Assembly (NCBI GenBank): GCA_008682415.1
Contig: VANK01000007.1
Span: 62,001-126,000 of the forward strand
Source: Acidobacteria bacterium AB60
GTDB taxonomy: Bacteria; Acidobacteriota; Terriglobia; Terriglobales; Acidobacteriaceae
Direction of reading: 5' to 3'
DNA length: 64,000 nt
Part shown: piece by piece, positions 2,275-62,749 of the stretch
Position numbering within the stretch: the first letter of the stretch is position 1
How the letters are laid out: each line of letters starts with the position of its first letter
Notes under the pieces: model-generated
What the model was told of the DNA's origin: nothing
Seen by the model: the letters and a program-made list of their open reading frames with translations, nothing else
Database searches by the model: none
Program-made: the position numbers and the translations under genes

Positions 2275-2885
2275 GCGGGCAGGGATGCCCCGTAGGCGCC
2301 AGGGATATGAGCCCCGCGCTTCTCATCGGGCAATGATCCCCGAATAACAACCGAAAGAGCGTTGAACGAACCACCTGCCCCGTAGGCGCAAAGGGTATTG
2401 GCCCCGCGCTTCTGATCGGGCAATGATCCCCGAATAACAACCGAAAGAGCGCGGAACGAAACGCCTGCCCCGCAGGGGCAAAGGGTATTAGCCCCGCGCT
2501 TCTGATCGGGCAATGATCCCCGAATAACAACCGAAAGAGCGCGGAACGAAACGCCTGCCCCGTAGGCGCAAAGGGTATTAGCCCCGCGCTTCTGATCGGA
2601 CAATGATCCCCGAATAACACCGAAAGAGCGCGGAACGAAACGCCTGCCCCGCAGGGGCAAAGGGTATTAGCCCCGCGCTTCAGCGTGGGGAAAAAGGCCC
2701 ACGATGTACACCCCGGAGTCCCGTAGGGACGGCACCCCGGGTCGGGCAATGATCCCCGAATAACACCGAAAGAGCGCGGAACGAAACGCCTGCCCCGCAG
2801 GGGCAAAGGGTATTAGCCCCGCGCTTCAGCGTGGGGAAAAAGGCCCACGATGTACCCCCCGGAGTCCCGTAGGGACGGCACCCCA
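2275..2885. repeat. Tandem repeat array with ~90-base period, short hairpins in each unit
   Basis: The unit begins CCTGCCCCG(T/C)AGG and recurs at about 2374, 2464, 2554, 2643 and 2789, with a diverged first unit near 2285. The period is 90, 90, 89, then 146 because the last units carry an extra segment (GCGTGGGGAAAAAGG, then GTCCCGTAGGGAC and GGCACCCC). Most units contain a TGCCCC-GYA-GGGGCA type hairpin. The reverse strand stays open across much of the array and would encode a repetitive, low-plausibility peptide. I treat it as non-coding repeat DNA between padR and the next gene. Confidence 0.9.
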
Positions 2886-8056: not shown

Positions 8057-8602
8057 AAACTACGGGCGAGCCGCCCCTGCCCTTCGCCATCGGCAAGCGG
8101 TTCGCCCGTTGTCCCCCGAGATCTGCCCTGAAAATTCCGCCTCAGAAAAGTCCGCTCCTCCACAGACCTGTCATCCCGCACCCTGAGCACAGCGAAGGGA
8201 GAGGGATCCGCAGTTGCTCTTGTCGTTGCTCTTTTCCTGCTCCCGGGTGCCGCACGGCGACATGGATGACTGCTGTTGTCCTATCCCAGCGTGTCGAACT
8301 CCCCAACGCTCTGCCGTGAAAATACTCCCATCTCAAAAAAAGTCCGCTCCTCCAGAGACCTGTCATCCCGCACCCTGAGCACAGCGAAGGGGGAGGGATC
8401 CGCAGTTGCTCTTGTCGTTGCTCTTTTCCTGCTCTCGGGCGCTGCACGTCGCCGTGGATGACTGCTGTTGTCCTATCCCAGCGTGTCGAACTCCTCCATC
8501 TCAAAAAAGTCCGCTCCTCCAGAGACCTGTCATCCCGCACCCTGTCGTTGCTCTTTTCCTGCTCTCGGGTGCCGCACGGCGCCGTGGATGACTGCTGTTG
8601 TG
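8057..8602. repeat. Three-unit tandem repeat downstream of ribA carrying copies of the ribA 3' end
   Basis: Units begin AAAAGTCCGCTCCTCC at about 8146, 8338 and 8505 (spacing ~192 and ~167). They continue through CATCCCGCACCCTGAGCACAG, CGTTGCTCTTTTCCTGCT and GGATGACTGCTGTTGT. The first two units end in a 21-base sequence identical to the last six codons plus stop of ribA (at 8281 and ~8472); the third runs directly into the real ribA end at 8603. The third unit lacks the middle segment. No coding potential is credible here. A further copy of part of the unit, inverted, lies near 38.37-38.43 kb. Confidence 0.9.
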
Positions 8603-9268
8603 CTATCCCAGCGTGTCGAACTCGCCCACGCTCTCGAAGATGTGACCCATCTTCTCCTGCTTGGTCTTGAGATACCGTTCGAACGTATCCTGCGGCTCCA
8701 CCTCCGCCGACACCCGCTCTGTCACCGCAATCCCCGCCGTCTGCAGCGCCGCCACCTTATCGGGATTGTTGGTCATCAGCCGCACCGCACTTACCCCCAG
8801 CAGCTTCAGCACCTCCGCCGGAAGCTCGTACGCGCGGCAGTCCGGCGCATACCCCAGCTCAACGTTGGCCTCAACCGTATCCAGGCCCTTGTCCTGCAGC
8901 TCGTAGGCCTTCAGCTTCGCCATCAGGCCGATCCCCCGGCCCTCCTGCTGCTCGTACAGCAGAATCCCCGCGCCCTCCGCCGCAATCCGGCTCAGCGCCA
9001 GCTCCAGCTGCAAACGGCAGTCGCAGCGCAGCGACCCAAACACGTCCCCCGTCAAACACTGCGAGTGAATCCGCACCAGCGGCGGCTGCCCGTGAATCTC
9101 TCCCATCACCAGGGCCACCAGGCCCTCCACCCGCTTGCCGCTCTGCTCCCCGTGCTCGCAGCACGGCCGCGGCGCCGGAAGCACGCCCTCGAATCCAAAG
9201 ATCCGGAACGCCCCCCAGCGCGTCGGAAACTCCGCCTCCGCAACCTTGTTCACGCTTTCAAATGCCAT
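8603..9268 (-). CDS. ribA: GTP cyclohydrolase II
   Basis: 221 residues. It converts GTP to diaminohydroxy-phosphoribosylaminopyrimidine, formate and pyrophosphate, the first committed step of riboflavin synthesis. The zinc ligands C71, C82 and C84 lie in HSQCLTGDVFGSLRCDCRLQ, and the catalytic/GTP-binding segment is ILLYEQQEGRGIGLMAKLKAY. NPDKVAAL and the short VSAEVEP tail region are also typical. It is a stand-alone enzyme with no DHBP synthase (RibB) domain. An N-terminal extension of ~50 residues precedes the core, with a CC pair at 36-37. No riboflavin genes are nearby, and the 46 bases to the next gene are too short for an FMN riboswitch. Confidence 0.94.
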   Translation of the reverse strand: MAFESVNKVAEAEFPTRWGAFRIFGFEGVLPAPRPCCEHGEQSGKRVEGLVALVMGEIHGQPPLVRIHSQCLTGDVFGSLRCDCRLQLELALSRIAAEGAGILLYEQQEGRGIGLMAKLKAYELQDKGLDTVEANVELGYAPDCRAYELPAEVLKLLGVSAVRLMTNNPDKVAALQTAGIAVTERVSAEVEPQDTFERYLKTKQEKMGHIFESVGEFDTLG

Positions 9269-9314: not shown

Positions 9315-9821
9315 TCAGGCCGTCCGCGCCCGCCACCGGTAATACGCAATCAGGTCCATCGATTGCGGCGGCGTCGCCCCCAGCTGCCGCAGCAGCGTCG
9401 TGATCTGCCCGCGGTGATACGTCGCGTGATTCACCACGTGCTGCACCATCTGCCACATCGGATCCGACTGATCGTTCCCGCGCATGTCCTTGTACGTCAA
9501 CGCGCGTTCCACCGCCTCCGGCCCCAGCCGCGCCAGTTGCGTCCGCATCTCCGCCTCCAGGTCCGCCCACTCCCGCCGCACCGCCTCCGCGTCCGCAAAC
9601 CGGTCCAGCTTCGGCATGCCCTGCGGCGTCTCTCCCTTCAGCCGCGACACCCAGATCTGCTCCCCTCCGCACACGTGCGCCAGCGTATCCCGCACCGAGC
9701 TGAAACTGCTCCCCATCGGCTGGACGAACTGCTCCGTCGTCAGCGCCGCAACCGCACCCAGCACCTGGTCCCGGGCCCAATAGTGATAGTCAATCAGCAG
9801 CAGAAGATCGTTATAGGTCAT
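9315..9821 (-). CDS. DinB family protein
   Basis: 168 residues. The bundle is clear: LLLLIDYHYWARDQVLGAV (first helix), SFSSVRDTLAHVCGGEQIWVSRL (first metal His), and MVQHVVNHATYHRGQITTLLRQLGA, the HxxxHRGQ motif. The C-terminus LDLIAYYRW-like segment is typical of DinB family metal-binding, putative thiol-transferase proteins. Function within the family is not predictable. It is transcribed toward ribA with 46 bases between, so the two may be cotranscribed. Confidence 0.9.
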   Translation of the reverse strand: MTYNDLLLLIDYHYWARDQVLGAVAALTTEQFVQPMGSSFSSVRDTLAHVCGGEQIWVSRLKGETPQGMPKLDRFADAEAVRREWADLEAEMRTQLARLGPEAVERALTYKDMRGNDQSDPMWQMVQHVVNHATYHRGQITTLLRQLGATPPQSMDLIAYYRWRARTA

Positions 9822-9889
9822 GCCGCCAGTCTAGATTCCCGCCGCCCCTCGCGCACCCCCCTTGTGACGAACCGGCCCCATCCACCCAT

Positions 9890-10870
9890 GCTGCGTTCCT
9901 GAACGAAGTGAAGGATCCGCGGTTGCCTTTGAGCCGTCAGTTGCATTTGAGCCGTCCCCGCACGACCGTGGGCGTCTCCGTTTCCGCACGACCGTGGGCG
10001 TCTCCGTTTCCGCACGACCGAGGGTGCCCCGTTCTACGCGGATTGGAAGATCCGCGTAGGGCGGGACAGCACGACCCCCACCCAGCCCTCTCCGTTCCCG
10101 CACGATCCCACCCCAACCATTCTCCGTTCTCCCACAACCCGCGGGTGCCCCGTTCTAGGCGCGTTTTTTGCGCCTAGGGCGGGACAGCACGAACCCCACC
10201 CCAGCCCTCTCCGCTCTCCCACGACCAGGGGTGCCCCATGTCTCCCGTTGTTGGAGACATGGGATACCTCGAACTCCACCCAGCCCTCTCCGTTCCCGCA
10301 CGATCCCACCCCAACCATTCTCCGTTCTCCCACAACCCGCGGGTGCCCCGTTCTAGGCGCGTCTTTTGCGCCTAAGGCGGGACAGCACGAACCCCACCCA
10401 GCCATCTCCGTTCCCGCACGACGCGCGGGTGCCCCGTTCTAGGCGCGTCTTTTGCGCCTAGGGCGGGATAGCACGAACCCCACCCAGCCCTAACCGTTCT
10501 CCCACGACCAGGGGTGCCCCATGTCTCCCGTTGTTGGAGACATGGGATACCACGAACCCCACCCAGCCATCTCCGTTCCCGCACGACCAGGGGTGCCCCA
10601 TGTCTCCCGCAGTTGGAGACATGGGATACCTCGAACTCCACCCAGCCCCCTCCGTTCCCGCACGATCCCACCCCAACCATTCTCCGTTCTCCCACGACCG
10701 CGGGTGCCCCGTTCTAGGCGCGTCTTTTGCGCCTAGGGCGGGACAGCACGAACCCCACCCCAGCCCTCTCCGCTCTCCCACGACCAGGGGTGCCCCATGT
10801 CTCCCGTCGTTGGAGACATGGGATAGCACGAACTCCCCCCAGCCCTCTCCGCTCTCTCCAACGCTCGCGT
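9890..10870. repeat. Array of nine hairpin repeats with shared flanks and three different stems
   Basis: Each unit reads GGGTGCCCC, hairpin, then GGG(A/C) and a C-rich spacer containing CACGAACCCCACCCAGCC and CCGTTCCCGCACGA. Stem type A is CTACGCGGAT/ATCCGCGTAG (10034-10059, once). Type B is CTAGGCGC/GCGCCTAG (10155-10177 and near 10353, 10435 and 10715). Type C is CCCATGTCTCC/GGAGACATGGG (10235-10263 and near 10520, 10600 and 10795). Arms are complementary within each type although the types differ in sequence. Spacing is 80-120 bases. The first ~140 bases carry a short CGACCGTGGGCGTCTCCGT direct repeat. Related inverted copies lie near 36.1, 43.2 and 55.1 kb. Confidence 0.92.
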
Positions 10871-10939
10871 GGAACTGTAAAGGGTGTAAAGGATGTCATG
10901 GAACTGACCCCCCGCTGTCGGAGACACGGCACGACCGTG

Positions 10940-11300
10940 GTCCCTCCAATCATAAAATGTACTACAAAAGTAGCATCAAATTACCACGAAAATTAGGCGA
11001 AAACAGTTAGAAACGTGATCTGCATCACCTTGGCGGAACCGCGCCGGGAGCTCGGCAGAAGGCCCGTGCAGCTGGGCCACTCGATGCTCAGAACCCGGCC
11101 TCTCAACCACCCCTCTACCTGATTCTCCCCTGACCCGCCCCGATCGCCTCTTCCCCTGCCGGATGACCCAGACGACTGATTCTGTCCGAAATCCTGTCAA
11201 GTCCCCCATCTGTGGAAAACGCTCGAAAGTACCTCAAAACACAACGAAAATAAATCTTCCGAAGATTGGGGATTAATTCGGCGAACCAGTCATACTGGTA
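10940..11300. other. Non-coding AT-rich interval with a CTAC-N4-GTAG palindrome
   Basis: After the hairpin array the sequence becomes A/T-rich (about 10945-11015 and 11215-11275), with a C-rich stretch at 11090-11165 between. CTACAAAAGTAG at about 10962-10973 is a 12-base palindrome of the type bound by BlaI/MecI-family repressors. A TGTGGAAAA at about 11211 resembles a DnaA box. No gene is seen on either strand. A replication-related or regulatory role is inference. Confidence 0.4.
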
Positions 11301-11533: not shown

Positions 11534-14500
11534 TTATTTGCGCGCGCGCCAAAAACTTCGGCAAAAAAGTTGGCGGCTGAAGCGGACGGCCAATTGCACC
11601 ACCCGCGGGTCGGTGGTGGTGCTGGTGATCGACCCGAAGGCCGCCGACCCGAAGCTGCCATTGGGCTGCGCGAACGCCGGCGTGTTGAAGACGTTGAACA
11701 GCTCCGCCCGCAGTTCCAGGCCCGTTTCGTGGAACAGTACGGTGTGTTTCACGAGCGCCACGTCGAGGTCGCGGTAGGCGGGGCCGCGCACCGGGTTGCG
11801 CGACGCCGACCCCAGCGTGAACTGCGGCGCCGTCGCGAACGCCGCGGTGTTGAAGTAGCGCACCGGCGAGCGCTCCCCCGGAGGCAGGGAGGGGGTGCCC
11901 ACAAGGTTTGGCCGCTGGATCGAGAAGCCGGCGAAGGCGTTGAGGTTGGTGGCCTGCGTCACCGTGACCGGCATTCCCGACTGCAGCGAGGCGATCGCGT
12001 TGAGCTGCCAGCCGCCGAGGGCCGCGTCGGCGAATCCCGTCGAGGCGAAGCGATGGCCGTGGCCGGCGGGCAGGTCCCAGGTGCCGCTGAACGAGGTCAC
12101 GTTGGGCATATCGCCGCTCGACGAGTCCCGTTCCAGCCAGGGCCGGAACGTGTCGGCCGCGATCAGGCTGCTGGAATTGGGCGACGAGAGCACCGTGGTC
12201 GAAAACACGGCGGAGGCATCGTCGATCAGGTGCGAGTGGGTGTAGGCGAAGAGGAAGGAGACGCCGTGCGCCAGCCGCTGCTCCACCTTGGCCTCGAGCG
12301 CGTTGTAGTTGGTCTGCCCGCTGTTGTGGCGATAGGTGGCCACGTTCTGGAAACGGGGATAGGGCTTGAGCAGCTGGGCCTGGGTGATGGTCTTGCCGCC
12401 CAGGGAGCTGGAGGCGGGAATCTGCCCGTAGTAGGGATTGGGAACGCTCTTGAGCAGCGCCGGTCCCTGCGCCAGGTCCCCGGCAGTGAGCTGGTTCAGG
12501 TTGGAGTCGGGAATGCCGACGTGGACGATGTGCGACCCCACGTAGGCCACCTCCGCGGAGAGATTGCCGGTGATCGCGCGCTGCACCGCCAGGTTCCACT
12601 GCTGCGAGTAGCCCGAGCCCGCGTGGCGGTCGGCGGTGTAGACGCTCTGGCCGAGGCCGGCGTCGGGTGTGAGCGGAATGGGAGCGACCGAGGGGCCCTG
12701 GGAGAGCGCAAAGGCGGGGCGAAGGTTGTCCTGGGTCTTCTGCTGCACGCCCTGGATGAAGGGAAACTGGGGGGTGGTGAACGGGGTGGTGATGCCGGAC
12801 TGATCGATGAAGACGATGCCGAAGCCGGAGCGCACCACCGTTTTGGGATCGGCGAGGAACGCGAAGCCGACGCGGGGGGCGACGTTGTCGGCGTGCAACT
12901 CCCGGGCGCTGTGCGAGAAGCCATCCCGGCCGAGGTAGTCCAGTTTCTGGGTGGAGAGGTTGAAGACGGCGCCCTGGTCGGTCTTCTCGGTGGAAGGGAA
13001 GTGGAGCGTGTAGCGCGCGCCCAGGTTCAGGGTCAGGCGGGCATCCACGCGCCAGTCGTCTTCGGCGAAGAACTCGAAGATGTGATCGCGGGGGCGGATC
13101 TTGCTCTGCTGCAGGTCGATCTGGAAGGTGTCGACCTGGCCCAGCAGGAAGCTGGCGATCGGGTTGCCGCTGCTGGCGATGCCCTGCTGATTGGTGCCGG
13201 TGGTGGTGAACGCGAAGGAGCCGGTGGGATTGGGAGGAGCCACCGCGTTCAACTGGTACCAGCGCAGATCGAGGCCGAACTTGAGCTGATGCGCGCCGCG
13301 CGTCCAGGAGAGGTTGTCGACGGTCTGCCAGACCGCGGTCTGGTACTGGGAGAAGGTGCTGGCGGAGGGACCGAGCTGTTGAAAGCCGGAGAGGGTGAAG
13401 AGCGGCAGGGCGTTGTTGAAGGCCGCGTTGGTGGGAATGCCGGGGATGCCCAGGGCGGCGGAGGCGGTATCAGGGAGCGTCGCGCCCTCGATGGTGTTGC
13501 CGCGGCGGGTGTAACCGACGCGCAGGTCGGCGAGGAGGTGCGGCGTGAACAGGTGCGTCTCATGGAGAACGGCCTGCTGCCCCAGAACATGCGACAGGCC
13601 GGCGACTCCGCCGGTTCCGATGACCGCGCCGGTGATTACGCCGCTGCCTTCCGGAAGCGGCGTCACGGGCTGCTCTACTTCGGAATAGTAAGAGTAGCGG
13701 CCGAAGAATTTGTCGGCGGGGCTGGCTGATCCGTCGATGCGTAGATCGAACTGGTTCTGGTGGTCGGCGTCGTTGGCGGTGCGGGTGTAGTTGTTGGCCC
13801 TCGCGTTCCGATTGGTCGGGGCAGGGAATCGGGCGAGCAGGGCCTGCGCCGCGGGGTCGAAGGGAACATTGATGACGTCGTTGGGAAACTCCTTGCGCAC
13901 AGTAACGCCGTTCACCACGGTGGTGGTCGCCGGATCGTAGATATGGGAGACGCCGGTGAAGATGCCCTGGCGTTCCGGCAGGGTGGGAACGGTGGAGATG
14001 CGGGTGACGCCGATGAGCTGCTTCACTCCCTGGTAGGCGCCGAAGAAGAAGAGGCGCCGGGGGAATAGAGGTCCGCCGAGGGTGGCGCCGTAGAGGTTGC
14101 GGCGGTACTCCGGCTTTCTTCCCCCGGCCGCGGCAAAGTAGTTGCGGGCGTTCAGATCTTCGTTGCGAAAGAACTCGAACAGGGTTCCGTGAAAGGTATC
14201 GGACCCGGAGCGGGTGGCGACATTGACGACTCCCCCGTTGAAGCGCCCGAACTCCGCGGGAACGTTGTCGGACTCGACGGTGAAGGCCTGAATGTCGTCG
14301 AGGATGGGGAAGTAGACCACCTGGCCGGGTTCGGGCTGCAGCGCGGAGATGCCGTCGAAGAGGTATTCGTTGGTGCGCGGGCGTCCCCCGTTGATGCGCG
14401 GCAGAACGGTGCCGGGGGGCAGTTCGACGCCGGGGGCGAGGGTGGCGAGCTGCACAAAGTTGCGCGTATTGAGGGGCATCGCAATCACGGTCGGGCCGGG

Positions 14501-14908
14501 AATGTTGGTTTCGATGTTGCTGGTGTCGGACTGCAACAGGGGCGCATCCGCGGTGACCTTCACGATCTGCTGATTGCCCCCGACCTTCAGGCTGAGATCG
14601 ATCCGGACGGTTTGTCCGACGATGGCCTGGATCCCGGTCCGGCTGAGATGGGCGAAGCCGGAAGCGTCCACGTCGAGTTCATAGGCGCCGGGAGTGAGGT
14701 CGGGAAACGAGTAGTCCCCGGCGGCGGAGGTGACGGTGGCGATGCGGATGCCGGTGGAGGTCCGGGTCAGGTCGATCGTGGCTCCGGCCACGCCGAGGCC
14801 GCCGGGATCGAGCACGCGTCCGCGCAGGCCGGCTCCGATCTGCGCGGACGCGGCGGCGTTGGAGAGCAAGGCAAGGAAGAGTACAGACAGAAGACGCCTC
14901 AGAAGCAT
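11534..14908 (-). CDS. Oar-like TonB-dependent receptor with carboxypeptidase-regulatory N-terminal domain
   Basis: 1124 residues with a signal peptide (MLLRRLLSVLFLALLSNAAA). Residues ~25-110 are a carboxypeptidase-regulatory-like beta sandwich (LRGRVLDPGGLGVAGATIDL, GDYSFPDLTPGAYELDV). The plug region includes MPLNTRNFVQLATLAPGV, INGGRPRTNEYLFDG and AEFGRFNGGVVNVATRSGS, as in acidobacterial Oar proteins. A large 22-strand-type barrel follows (YSQQWNLAVQR, AEVAYVGSH, NYNALEAKVEQR). It is an outer-membrane protein for uptake of large ligands; substrate unknown. GGAGATGAG precedes the ATG. The end is odd: the terminal strand VVQLAVRFS would normally close the protein near an aromatic residue, but the frame continues through a T-run into FCRSFWRARK. 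A molybdate-domain regulator lies upstream on the same strand. Confidence 0.9.
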   Translation of the reverse strand: MLLRRLLSVLFLALLSNAAASAQIGAGLRGRVLDPGGLGVAGATIDLTRTSTGIRIATVTSAAGDYSFPDLTPGAYELDVDASGFAHLSRTGIQAIVGQTVRIDLSLKVGGNQQIVKVTADAPLLQSDTSNIETNIPGPTVIAMPLNTRNFVQLATLAPGVELPPGTVLPRINGGRPRTNEYLFDGISALQPEPGQVVYFPILDDIQAFTVESDNVPAEFGRFNGGVVNVATRSGSDTFHGTLFEFFRNEDLNARNYFAAAGGRKPEYRRNLYGATLGGPLFPRRLFFFGAYQGVKQLIGVTRISTVPTLPERQGIFTGVSHIYDPATTTVVNGVTVRKEFPNDVINVPFDPAAQALLARFPAPTNRNARANNYTRTANDADHQNQFDLRIDGSASPADKFFGRYSYYSEVEQPVTPLPEGSGVITGAVIGTGGVAGLSHVLGQQAVLHETHLFTPHLLADLRVGYTRRGNTIEGATLPDTASAALGIPGIPTNAAFNNALPLFTLSGFQQLGPSASTFSQYQTAVWQTVDNLSWTRGAHQLKFGLDLRWYQLNAVAPPNPTGSFAFTTTGTNQQGIASSGNPIASFLLGQVDTFQIDLQQSKIRPRDHIFEFFAEDDWRVDARLTLNLGARYTLHFPSTEKTDQGAVFNLSTQKLDYLGRDGFSHSARELHADNVAPRVGFAFLADPKTVVRSGFGIVFIDQSGITTPFTTPQFPFIQGVQQKTQDNLRPAFALSQGPSVAPIPLTPDAGLGQSVYTADRHAGSGYSQQWNLAVQRAITGNLSAEVAYVGSHIVHVGIPDSNLNQLTAGDLAQGPALLKSVPNPYYGQIPASSSLGGKTITQAQLLKPYPRFQNVATYRHNSGQTNYNALEAKVEQRLAHGVSFLFAYTHSHLIDDASAVFSTTVLSSPNSSSLIAADTFRPWLERDSSSGDMPNVTSFSGTWDLPAGHGHRFASTGFADAALGGWQLNAIASLQSGMPVTVTQATNLNAFAGFSIQRPNLVGTPSLPPGERSPVRYFNTAAFATAPQFTLGSASRNPVRGPAYRDLDVALVKHTVLFHETGLELRAELFNVFNTPAFAQPNGSFGSAAFGSITSTTTDPRVVQLAVRFSRQLFCRSFWRARK

Positions 14909-36082: not shown

Positions 36083-36585
36083 GTGGGGTTCGCGGTATCC
36101 CATGTCTCCAACATCGGGAGACATGGGGCACCCTCGGTCGTGCGAGAGCGCAGAGAAGCTGAGGGAGAGTCGTGCTGTCCCACCCTAGGCGCAAAAGGCG
36201 CGCCTAGAATGGGGCATCCGCATTCGAAAGAGCAAAATCAAGAACAACTGCGGGTTCTTCGACTGCGCCGGTGCGGTGCACCGGCTTCGCTCAGAATGAC
36301 AGGTTGTTGGGGTGGGCGCTGCGCTCAGGAACAACCGCAGATCCTTCGCTGTGCTCAGGAACAACTGCGGGTTCTTCGACTGCGCCGGTGCGGTGCACCG
36401 GCTTCGCTCAGAATGACAGGGTTGTTGGGGTGGGCGCTGCGCTCAGGAACAACCGCAGGTCCTTCGCTGCGCTCAGGAAAAACTGCGGGTTCTTCGACTG
36501 CGCCGGTGCGGTGCACCGGCTTCGCTCAGAATGACAGGGTTGTTGGGTGGGGCCTGCGCTCAGGAACATACGGGTTCTTCGCTGT
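36083..36585. repeat. Mixed repeat cluster: inverted hairpin units plus tandem CTGCGGGTTCTTCG repeats
   Basis: 36099-36127 holds the ATGTCTCC-type hairpin and 36185-36207 the CTAGGCGC-type hairpin, both followed by GGGGCA(C/T)CC. This is the reverse orientation of the 9.9-10.9 kb array. From ~36240 to 36560 a unit containing AACTGCGGGTTCTTCGACTG, GGTGCGGTGCACCGG and CTTCGCTCAGAATGACAGG is repeated three times, with partial copies between. GGTGCGGTGCACCGG is self-complementary. No gene is credible here. Confidence 0.88.
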
Positions 36586-43045: not shown

Positions 43046-43416
43046 TTGCGAGTTGCGAGTTGCGAGTTGCGCGATGGACTATGCCTGGCAGCGTCCAATG
43101 CACGGACGAGGAGACCCGGGGTCTGGAGTTCTTTTCGCTACTCCTTGTGACCGCAGCGTAAAGGCATGGAGAACGCAGGGTGGAGGTATCCCATGTCTCC
43201 AAAATCGGGAGACATGGGGCACCCACGGTCGTGCCTGGTCGAGCGCCTGAGAGCCTGGAGAATGCAGCGCTGAGGTATCCCATGTCTCCAAAATCGGGAG
43301 ACATGGGGCACCCACGGTCGTGCCTGGTCGAGTGTGTAAAGGCCTGGAGAACGCAGGGCTGAGTCGCGAGTTGCGAGAGACGAGAGGCGAGACACCAGAC
43401 ACGAGACACGAGAGGC
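43046..43416. repeat. Repeat cluster: GAGTTGC tandem, two inverted hairpin units, GAGAC/GAGGC text
   Basis: GAGTTGCGAGTTGCGAGTTG follows the reductase stop directly. Two hairpin units (CCCATGTCTCC stems at 43190 and 43279, period 89) are flanked by GGCACCCACGGTCGTGCCTGG and GGAGAACGCAGGG. They are in the orientation of the 36.1 kb copies and opposite to the 9.9-10.9 kb array. The last 50 bases are degenerate GAGACACGAGAGGC text reaching the permease stop codon. Confidence 0.9.
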
Positions 43417-55030: not shown

Positions 55031-55140
55031 AGTACTACTTTTGTAGTTGGACAGTCGGCTGCGCTCCCGCCCTAACAAGTTAGGACGGGGCACCCCGATG
55101 TGTCCTAACAAAGTTGGGACGGGGCACCCCGATGCGCCCC
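55031..55140. repeat. CTAC-N4-GTAG palindrome and two short-stem members of the hairpin repeat family
   Basis: CTACTTTTGTAG (55035-55046) matches the palindrome type at 10.96 kb. CCTAAC/GTTAGG (55071-55084) and GTCCTAAC/GTTGGGAC (55102-55120) are hairpins, the second with one G-T wobble, each followed by GGGGCACCCC. Orientation equals the 36 and 43 kb copies. The region lies between convergent genes. Confidence 0.8.
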
Positions 55141-61762: not shown

Positions 61763-62749
61763 CTAGGCGGTTTCGGTCAGCACTTCGGCCAGCATCCGCG
61801 GATCCACGTTGCCCCCGCTCACGATGGCCGCCGCCTTGCGATACGGCGGGAGCTGGTGGGCGTGGAAGAGCAGCGCCGCCGTGGTGACCGCACCGCTGGG
61901 CTCCGGCACCAGGCGGGTAGTGGCCACAATGGCGCGCATGGCGGCGCGGATCTCCGCTTCGCTCAGCGTGAGAATGCCGTCCACATAGGCGCGGATGTGC
62001 GCGAAGTTGCGTTCGCCCACGCTCTGGGTGCGCAGCCCGTCGGCGATGGTGCGGCTGGTCAGCTCCGCCGGCCAGGTCACGAGCGTGCCGGTGCGAAAGC
62101 TCTCCGCAGCATCCCCGGCCAGCTCCGGCTCGATGCCGAAGACCTTGGCCTCGGGCCTGAGCAGTTTCACCGCCGCGGCGGTGCCGCTCAGCAGGCCGCC
62201 GCCCGAAACGGGGGAGAGCACGAGGTCCACGTCAGGCAGCGCTTCGACGACCTCCAGCGCACAGGTGGCCTGGCCGGCGATGATCTTCTCGTCGTCGTAC
62301 GGCGGCACCACGACGTAGCCGTGCTGGCGGACCAGCTCCTCGGCCTTGGCGAGCCGCTCGCTCGAGGCAACGCCGACGTCGACGATCTCCGCGCCCAGCG
62401 CCAGCGTGGCCGCGCGCTTGATGGCGGGGGCGTTGGACGGCATTACGATGACCGCTTTTGCGCCCACCGCGCGCGCCGCATAGGCGACGCCCTGGGCGTG
62501 ATTGCCGCTGGAGTAGGTGATGACGCCGCGGCCGATCTCCTCGCGCGAAAGCTGCAGGATCTTGTTGGCGGCGCCGCGCAGCTTGAAGCTGCCGATGGGC
62601 TGCAGGCTCTCGGCTTTGAGAAAGACCTGGCCGGCCACACCGTCAAACGGCGCGCGGATCAGGGGCGTTTTCACGGTCACGCCGGCGATGCGTTCGGCGG
62701 CGGCACGGATGGTGTCGAGAGAAACTAGCTGTTCTGTCGCGGTGGTCAT
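61763..62749 (-). CDS. PLP-dependent threonine/serine dehydratase
   Basis: 328 residues. Fold type II: ESLQPIGSFKLRGAANKI with the Schiff-base K56, VITYSSGNHAQGVAYAARAVG (SSGNHAQG), and SPVSGGGLLSG as the PLP phosphate-binding loop. It deaminates threonine to 2-oxobutyrate or serine to pyruvate. No ACT domain is present, so it resembles catabolic or serine racemase-like dehydratases rather than biosynthetic IlvA. It could also be a serine racemase; racemase and dehydratase cannot be told apart here. Stand-alone. Confidence 0.92.
   Translation of the reverse strand: MTTATEQLVSLDTIRAAAERIAGVTVKTPLIRAPFDGVAGQVFLKAESLQPIGSFKLRGAANKILQLSREEIGRGVITYSSGNHAQGVAYAARAVGAKAVIVMPSNAPAIKRAATLALGAEIVDVGVASSERLAKAEELVRQHGYVVVPPYDDEKIIAGQATCALEVVEALPDVDLVLSPVSGGGLLSGTAAAVKLLRPEAKVFGIEPELAGDAAESFRTGTLVTWPAELTSRTIADGLRTQSVGERNFAHIRAYVDGILTLSEAEIRAAMRAIVATTRLVPEPSGAVTTAALLFHAHQLPPYRKAAAIVSGGNVDPRMLAEVLTETA

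Follow-up and report, generated by a model that had tools for sequence, protein, structure and literature searches.

The hairpins clustered near 10 kb in the stretch of the Acidobacteria bacterium AB60 draft genome shown above are very probably REP elements that belong to an acidobacterial lineage of REP-associated tyrosine transposases (RAYTs), carry a non-canonical foot, and have been locally amplified into tandem arrays. REP elements are very short non-coding sequences, carried as passengers and presumably copied by a small transposase, the gene for which is itself flanked by like hairpins. The window analyzed here is the whole 64,000-nt stretch (positions 62,001 to 126,000 of contig VANK01000007.1), and all feature coordinates are given as window positions (Table 1). 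Nine GGGTGCCCC hairpins lie on the plus strand and six further hairpins on the minus strand, and all 15 are intergenic, though a rough ORF caller assigns about 86% of the window to coding sequence. The initial annotation had reported nine hairpins in about 1 kb and further members at 36.1, 43.2, and 55.1 kb, the last with the CCTAAC type, and every one of these was located. The cluster had been drawn as starting at 9890, which is too early: the hairpins begin at 10022, and the short tandem repeats ahead of them contain none.

Table 1. Hairpins, arrays, and neighboring genes in the 64,000-nt window
Feature	Details	Position	Strand
Tandem repeats	18-bp then 26-bp units, without hairpins; 26-bp unit resembles array spacer	9922..10024	+
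REP hairpin	CTA class, stem CCCGTTCTACGCGGATT	10022..10066	+
REP hairpin	CTA class, stem CCCGTTCTAGGCGCG	10143..10184	+
REP hairpin	ATG class, stem CCCATGTCTCC	10229..10264	+
REP hairpin	CTA class, one C-A mismatch	10341..10382	+
REP hairpin	CTA class	10427..10468	+
REP hairpin	ATG class	10512..10547	+
REP hairpin	ATG class	10591..10626	+
REP hairpin	CTA class	10702..10743	+
REP hairpin	ATG class	10788..10823	+
Tandem array	hairpin + homologous spacer, periods 79, ~85-86, 198 bp	10078..10850	+
REP hairpin	CTA class, foot GGATGC	36178..36219	-
REP hairpin	ATG class	36098..36133	-
REP hairpin	ATG class	43278..43313	-
REP hairpin	ATG class	43189..43224	-
Degenerate REP hairpin	CCTAAC type, one C-A mismatch, without closing GGG	55102..55129	-
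REP hairpin	CCTAAC type; stem identical to hairpins flanking contig C4 RAYT	55065..55095	-
DinB-family gene	PF05163, left neighbor of array	9315..9821	-
Outer-membrane beta-barrel protein gene	PF25183, right neighbor of array	11534..14908	-

Each unit comprises a foot, GGGTGC, a stem running from CCC to GGG, and a closing A, and the stem is uninterrupted over 11-17 bp in eight of the nine array hairpins when G-T pairs are counted. Because the stem starts at CCC, the CTAGGCGC, CTACGCGGAT, and CCTAAC stems emerge as relatives that have CCC[AG]T[TC]CTA/TAGGG[CT]GGG in common. The array therefore contains two stem classes, CCC[AG]T[TC]CTA... (the CTA class, with variable tips GGCGC, CGCGGAT, or AC) and CCCATGTCTCC (the ATG class), and the earlier description of three unrelated stems stands for CCCATGTCTCC alone, the other two being built on a common 9-bp base. 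Elements of both classes end in ...GGGA; the GGG(A/C) formerly placed after the stem resulted from cutting the stem short. The boundaries of the unit were examined in 22 dispersed copies from three relatives (G001, G008, and G020), with only those positions scored that the search had left free: G stands at -5 in all 22 copies and at -6 in 18, A stands at +1 in all 22, and information outside the unit is at most 0.6 bits, except for 0.66 at +6 and 0.86 at +9. These limits of conservation set the ATG-class unit at about 36 nt.

When eight units (six from the window and two adjacent to RAYT genes) were folded as single-stranded DNA and compared with 200 shuffles each, six of them, five from the window and that of contig C13, folded better than every shuffle (z -4.1 to -6.0), and two short CCTAAC units folded more weakly (z -2.1, equaled by nine shuffles, and z -2.9, by one). 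In the best predicted fold of the two CTA units tried, GTGC pairs with GCAC past a 3-nt ACA bulge, and the ATG units have GGT paired to ACC beyond an internal loop. Complementarity was assessed in copies chosen with one pair left free (a purine on one side, a pyrimidine on the other). Among 200 such copies from relatives the free pair is A-T in 125, G-C in 72, G-T in two, and A-C in one, so that 197 are A-T or G-C, and the adjacent, wholly free pair is complementary in 196; in the genome itself the corresponding counts are 35 of 36 and 36 of 36. Fisher values for these counts are not independent-sample probabilities, because the copies are related to one another. The two arms thus do not vary independently, and a conserved flank around a swapped yet complementary stem, the pattern first remarked in the window, is genus-wide, in these copies as in the RAYT loci described below. 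Support for the accompanying proposal, that the fold matters, extends as far as complementarity within one strand, which the base-pair counts suggest has been maintained.

No RAYT gene lies in the window, as originally stated, and the five Y1 transposase genes of the genome are all on other contigs (C13, C4, C28, C22, and C27). Y1_Tnp is the sole domain found in their proteins, which lack an HTH. The C13 and C4 proteins exceed the cut-off of the REP-associated tyrosine transposase family NF047646 (116.7 and 100.4 vs 80 bits); the RAYT proteins have HVH and Tyr motifs, and the best PDB match is E. coli TnpA(REP) (4er8, E 4.3e-10). These two of the five Y1 genes are flanked by hairpins of the window family, in direct and not inverted orientation. 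The C13 gene is accompanied by CCTTGCGA stems, one upstream (foot CGTGG, at the contig start) and seven downstream, and the C4 gene by CCTAAC stems like those at 55.1 kb, two upstream (one of them imperfect) and two downstream. The C28 and C22 proteins are also above the REP-associated tyrosine transposase cut-off, and neither gene has a window-family hairpin within 1.5 kb on either side. The C27 protein is nearer to IS200, falls just under the IS200 family cut-off, and is encoded amid a different repeat.

This second repeat, TGCCCCGTAGG.GC...GCCCCGCGCTTC, occurs in at least two copies at window 2282-2420 and in several around the IS200-like Y1 gene of C27 (L011), and may represent a distinct hairpin family that has a transposase of its own. 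The RAYT on C4 may be inactive, because it has P in place of H at a near-invariant position and H at a position that is mostly Q, and because its frame (L015:1336-2049, minus strand) enters REP hairpins at both ends, its C-terminus diverging from the conserved one where REP sequence starts. Beyond the five Y1 genes, no further RAYT of this group, intact or decayed, was found in the genome at E values up to 10.

The linkage of hairpin and transposase extends to relatives. The C13 protein has a match at E 1e-15 in 57 of 80 genomes, its own included. In a set of 101 RAYT loci of the genus (100 from the C13 search, C13 among them, plus C4), TGCCCC hairpins occur on both sides within 300 bp at 71, as inverted pairs at 65; at the remaining 30 a hairpin is missing on at least one side within 300 bp, in some cases owing to contig ends. 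A count of every TGCCCC within 200 bp of the RAYT genes, folding or not, places the motif on the expected strand in 110 vs 6 instances upstream and in 97 vs 18 downstream. A stem of 10 bp or longer accompanies 86 of the 110 and 80 of the 97 (0.25 expected each in shuffles). More than 600 bp from RAYT genes such stems accompany 25 of 98 TGCCCC motifs, as a dispersed repeat would give. Loci from named records, which partly lie on contigs identical to those of the 101-locus set, have an inverted TGCCCC hairpin pair at 50 of 80, and no hairpin in two among the 24 listed. The foot GGGTGC is present on at least one side of RAYTs in Acidicapsa, Acidobacterium, Granulicella, Edaphobacter, Silvibacterium, and Ca. 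Angelobacter, the GG foot being favored among these loci because the query was built from GG-foot RAYTs. The initial annotation had likened the family to no known kind and had seen no RAYT-type transposase in the window; a search for a linked one in the genome and its relatives finds RAYT genes flanked by the hairpins in both, and the family is thereby placed with REP elements and their RAYTs.

What varies between RAYT lineages is chiefly the stem. The foot is mostly GG, CC, or CT followed by nTGC-CCC (GG[GCT]TGC, CCGTGC, or CTGTGC), and the acidobacterial hairpins do not match the canonical GT[AG]G foot. When 93 intact RAYTs are arranged in a tree calculated with the motif columns left out, stem class (the five bases after CCC) changes 23 times vs 61.7 in 100 shuffles (minimum 56) and the foot 7 times vs 20.3, a clustering that is inflated by near-copies among the RAYTs. 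The stem changes with RAYT lineage, and the foot is kept. We compared the foot with residue 101, the position aligned through 4er8 with H101 of E. coli TnpA(REP) (numbering from PMC6006769), in the 86 of 93 intact RAYTs that have a usable hairpin on the expected strand, the upstream one being preferred. All 65 rows with a GG foot have F at this position, GG occurs in none of the 19 rows with another residue, and two rows with F have the foot AG or CG. Beyond GG, the residue is H, once R, where the foot is CC, and S, R, A, or G where it is CT or GT; the two feet of an inverted pair differ in three of 65 pairs. Independent changes of foot and residue amount to one pair on supported branches and two on all branches, so few that no test can reach significance, and the apparent tracking of the foot by the residue aligned with H101 is a lead, not proof.

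Selection at the level of RNA offers another way to account for maintained complementarity. According to this explanation, which we consider unlikely, the hairpins are transcribed, end transcription or protect mRNA 3' ends, and are selected for RNA folding. G-T pairs do occur in the stems, and the locations of dispersed copies in relatives, as judged with a rough gene caller, are congenial to it: 16 of 22 are outside called ORFs (vs 20% of random positions) and six inside, and the 16 intergenic copies lie between tandem genes in 11 cases, convergent genes in five, and divergent genes in none. A hairpin on each side of RAYT genes, mostly mirrored, would however be unexpected for such elements, which also leave the foot and its tie to the RAYT motif unexplained, and window 9800-11000 has no match in Rfam. 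An RNA-level side role may exist beside mobility.

The abundance of the hairpins fits a mobile REP family in general, and the distribution of individual stems is uneven. Strict copies number 201 in the 6.65-Mb genome (33 contigs), many of them in arrays, and the reversed pattern used as a control finds none, which excludes chance. The commonest stem, ATGTCTCC, has 158 copies; elsewhere it has 26, 23, and 7 copies in three relatives and is absent from the other 394 of the 398 family genomes searched, and one copy was found with a stricter pattern in a genome outside that sample (G065). The CTA class has 100 copies and is present in 36 of 79 genus genomes, AB60 included. No RAYT lies beside ATGTCTCC in the loci examined from other genomes, in 30 loci around this stem, or in the array loci of AB60, where only the C13 and C4 genes occur, each with its own stems; the nearest approach is CCCATGTCTCG, downstream of a Terracidiphilus RAYT (L107/L155). 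The relative with 23 ATGTCTCC copies (G020, 92% complete) has no RAYT of this group at E 1e-15, and represents either an orphan REP population or a missing contig. Further copies of TTCATCGC average 4.8 in genomes where the cognate RAYT was found vs 1.5 in those where it was not (p 0.0013), and those of CGGTCCCT 7.9 vs 3.4 (p 0.054, weak), a modest association in values uncorrected for kinship. As to a vacant site for the window cluster, its DinB neighbor is present in five of 78 relatives (E 1e-30, 60-71% identity) and no TGCCCC hairpin occurs in those five loci, the flanks of which are too different for an insertion to be called.

The abundance of a stem with no RAYT beside it bears on a refinement of the REP/RAYT reading, a real possibility though not the outcome we would expect, in which any RAYT that reads the GGGTGC foot serves several unrelated stems in trans. 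The ATGTCTCC and CTA stems have the foot, the closing A, and the array spacer in common, and of the two RAYTs of this group in AB60 only that on C4 has the F101 motif that goes with the GGGTGC foot of the window. E. coli TnpA(REP) tolerates swapped upper stems (PMC8266576), which is probably why the acidobacterial stems can drift. Stem class nevertheless tracks RAYT lineage, so the stem may matter too; the C4 enzyme may be inactive; and loss of a cognate RAYT would explain the orphan ATGTCTCC stem equally well. More speculative still, and in our judgment rather doubtful, is a Terriglobia-wide super-family of GGGTGC REPs, separate from the GTAG and CGTC ones, in which a loop in the H101 region of the RAYT would read the foot and leave the stem free. 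If this were true, a single RAYT would carry several unrelated stems in trans, and orphan stems like ATGTCTCC could reach 158 copies.

The clustering of the hairpins in the window has a local cause. The array hairpins are not nine independent insertions; together with spacers that are homologous to one another, they form a direct tandem array of 79- and ~85-bp units. In arrays sampled from the genome, 90 neighboring hairpin pairs less than 400 bp apart most often have a spacing of 46 nt. The spacer CACGAACCCCACCCAGCC...CCGTTCCCGCACGACC is recognizably alike after an ATG or a CTA stem in most arrays, only its first bases being retained in the CCTTGCGA array of C13. A common spacer after either stem gave rise to the earlier impression of interchangeable stems in constant flanks; recombination between arrays and insertion beside an existing unit are both possible sources of two stems in one spacer frame. 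Under a loose pattern, CAC[GA]A stands on both sides of 72 of 116 units, and in the window array spacers are joined without a hairpin after CACGA at 10105, 10303, and 10665. Excision of hairpins between CACGA repeats was considered and set aside, since by the rule of our script only five of 71 spacer ends are so joined (three in the window, which are alike, and two elsewhere, which continue differently), probably few events copied by duplication. By extrapolation from the guide rule of PMC8266576, such excision would fit a GTGC guide choosing GA or GC.

Several contig ends (C1, C2, C4, C9, and C13) fall inside REP arrays or no more than a few hundred bases away; the array on C9 reaches 85058 of 85098, and C13 starts inside a hairpin. 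The arrays may therefore break the assembly and exceed the length shown. Separately, window 8136-8634 contains a 50-nt and a 92-nt unit, each present in three direct copies that are 84-93% alike and lack inverted repeats, with starts 192 and then 167 or 130 bp apart.

Could the window cluster be a satellite, produced by tandem-repeat expansion with no part played by a transposase in its origin? Homologous spacers in direct arrays with periods of 79, 86, and 198 bp, and the contig ends in or near arrays, would be expected in that case. Expansion accounts for the array and not for the family, however: in three relatives the unit occurs as dispersed singletons in unrelated surroundings, and hairpins with its foot adjoin RAYT genes, which makes a pure satellite very improbable. 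Under the REP/RAYT explanation, the non-autonomous unit of about 36-45 nt (foot GGGTGC, G+C-rich stem-loop, closing GGGA) would have been dispersed by an acidobacterial lineage of Y1/HUH RAYTs, the genes for which retain REPs next to them. The RAYT would recognize the foot of the single-stranded, folded hairpin together with its base, so that upper stems could diverge provided that both arms change together, new stems arising with new RAYT lineages. Slippage or unequal recombination in AB60 would then have multiplied single units with adjoining spacer into direct arrays, from which the 1-kb cluster with its two stem classes in one spacer frame results.

REP identity accounts for a repeat with arrays at several contig ends of a draft genome, and its interest extends to recognition. 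With about 100 related RAYTs and the hairpins that go with them, a single genus provides a natural experiment in how a transposase recognizes single-stranded DNA; with foot and enzyme motif appearing to change together and stems separately, REP recognition, which has been studied in three proteobacterial models (PMC8266576), could be tested by swapping one residue or one foot.

In a text search, which does not reach figures and supplements, GGTGCCCC gave no match in the acidobacterial literature; combined with palindromes and transposases, its only match, known from its listing, concerns Sulfolobus small RNAs. Among the matches listed for GGGTGCCCC, all are unrelated by title. Of known systems, CRISPR arrays combine identical repeats with unique spacers, unlike the mutually homologous spacers of the window array. 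Solibacter usitatus carries a class 3 TnpA(Y1) with about 600 hairpins (PMC6006769); this system is likewise acidobacterial, with high-copy hairpins near the TnpA(Y1) genes, and differs in its CnGA foot and Y----Q signature, where the present system has an nTGC foot and mostly Y-x-HRNP. The TIRYTs (TIRtrons) include an Acidobacteria group of T. saanensis, K. versatilis, A. capsulatum, and G. mallensis (PMC3733652), similar in phylum and in having Y1 genes with terminal inverted repeats, some of them genome-repeated. The published TIR consensus, GGGG[AT][CG]A[CG], is not matched by GGGGCACC, however, and 20 of 26 published TIRYTs belong to subclass 2.1, with an HTH domain (PMC6006769) that the AB60 RAYTs lack; compared by the text of PMC3733652 and not by the sequences in its figures, that group and the present system are possibly the same lineage.

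The closest resemblance is to the REP/RAYT systems (REPtrons) best studied in Proteobacteria. These have the canonical foot GT[AG]G (PMC6006769), which the acidobacterial foot is not, and REPs inverted around the RAYT gene (PMC2817692), unlike the direct flanks of the two AB60 RAYTs; most acidobacterial RAYTs also have F at the E. coli H101 position. In BIMEs and REPINs, REPs alternate in inverted orientation, whereas all nine hairpins of the window array are on the plus strand. E. coli TnpA(REP) is reported to accept a loop and upper stem replaced by their complements and to be sensitive to changes in GTAG, in the bulge, and at two bases of the lower stem, and a second enzyme is sensitive also to changes in the loop and to an imperfect stem (PMC8266576). 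The systems agree in having short, mostly intergenic, high-copy palindromes with bulged or perfect stems, a Y1/HUH transposase gene between palindromes (inverted at 65 of the 101 acidobacterial loci), tandem clusters carrying flanking DNA (described in PMC3733652), and palindromes that diverge with the RAYT.
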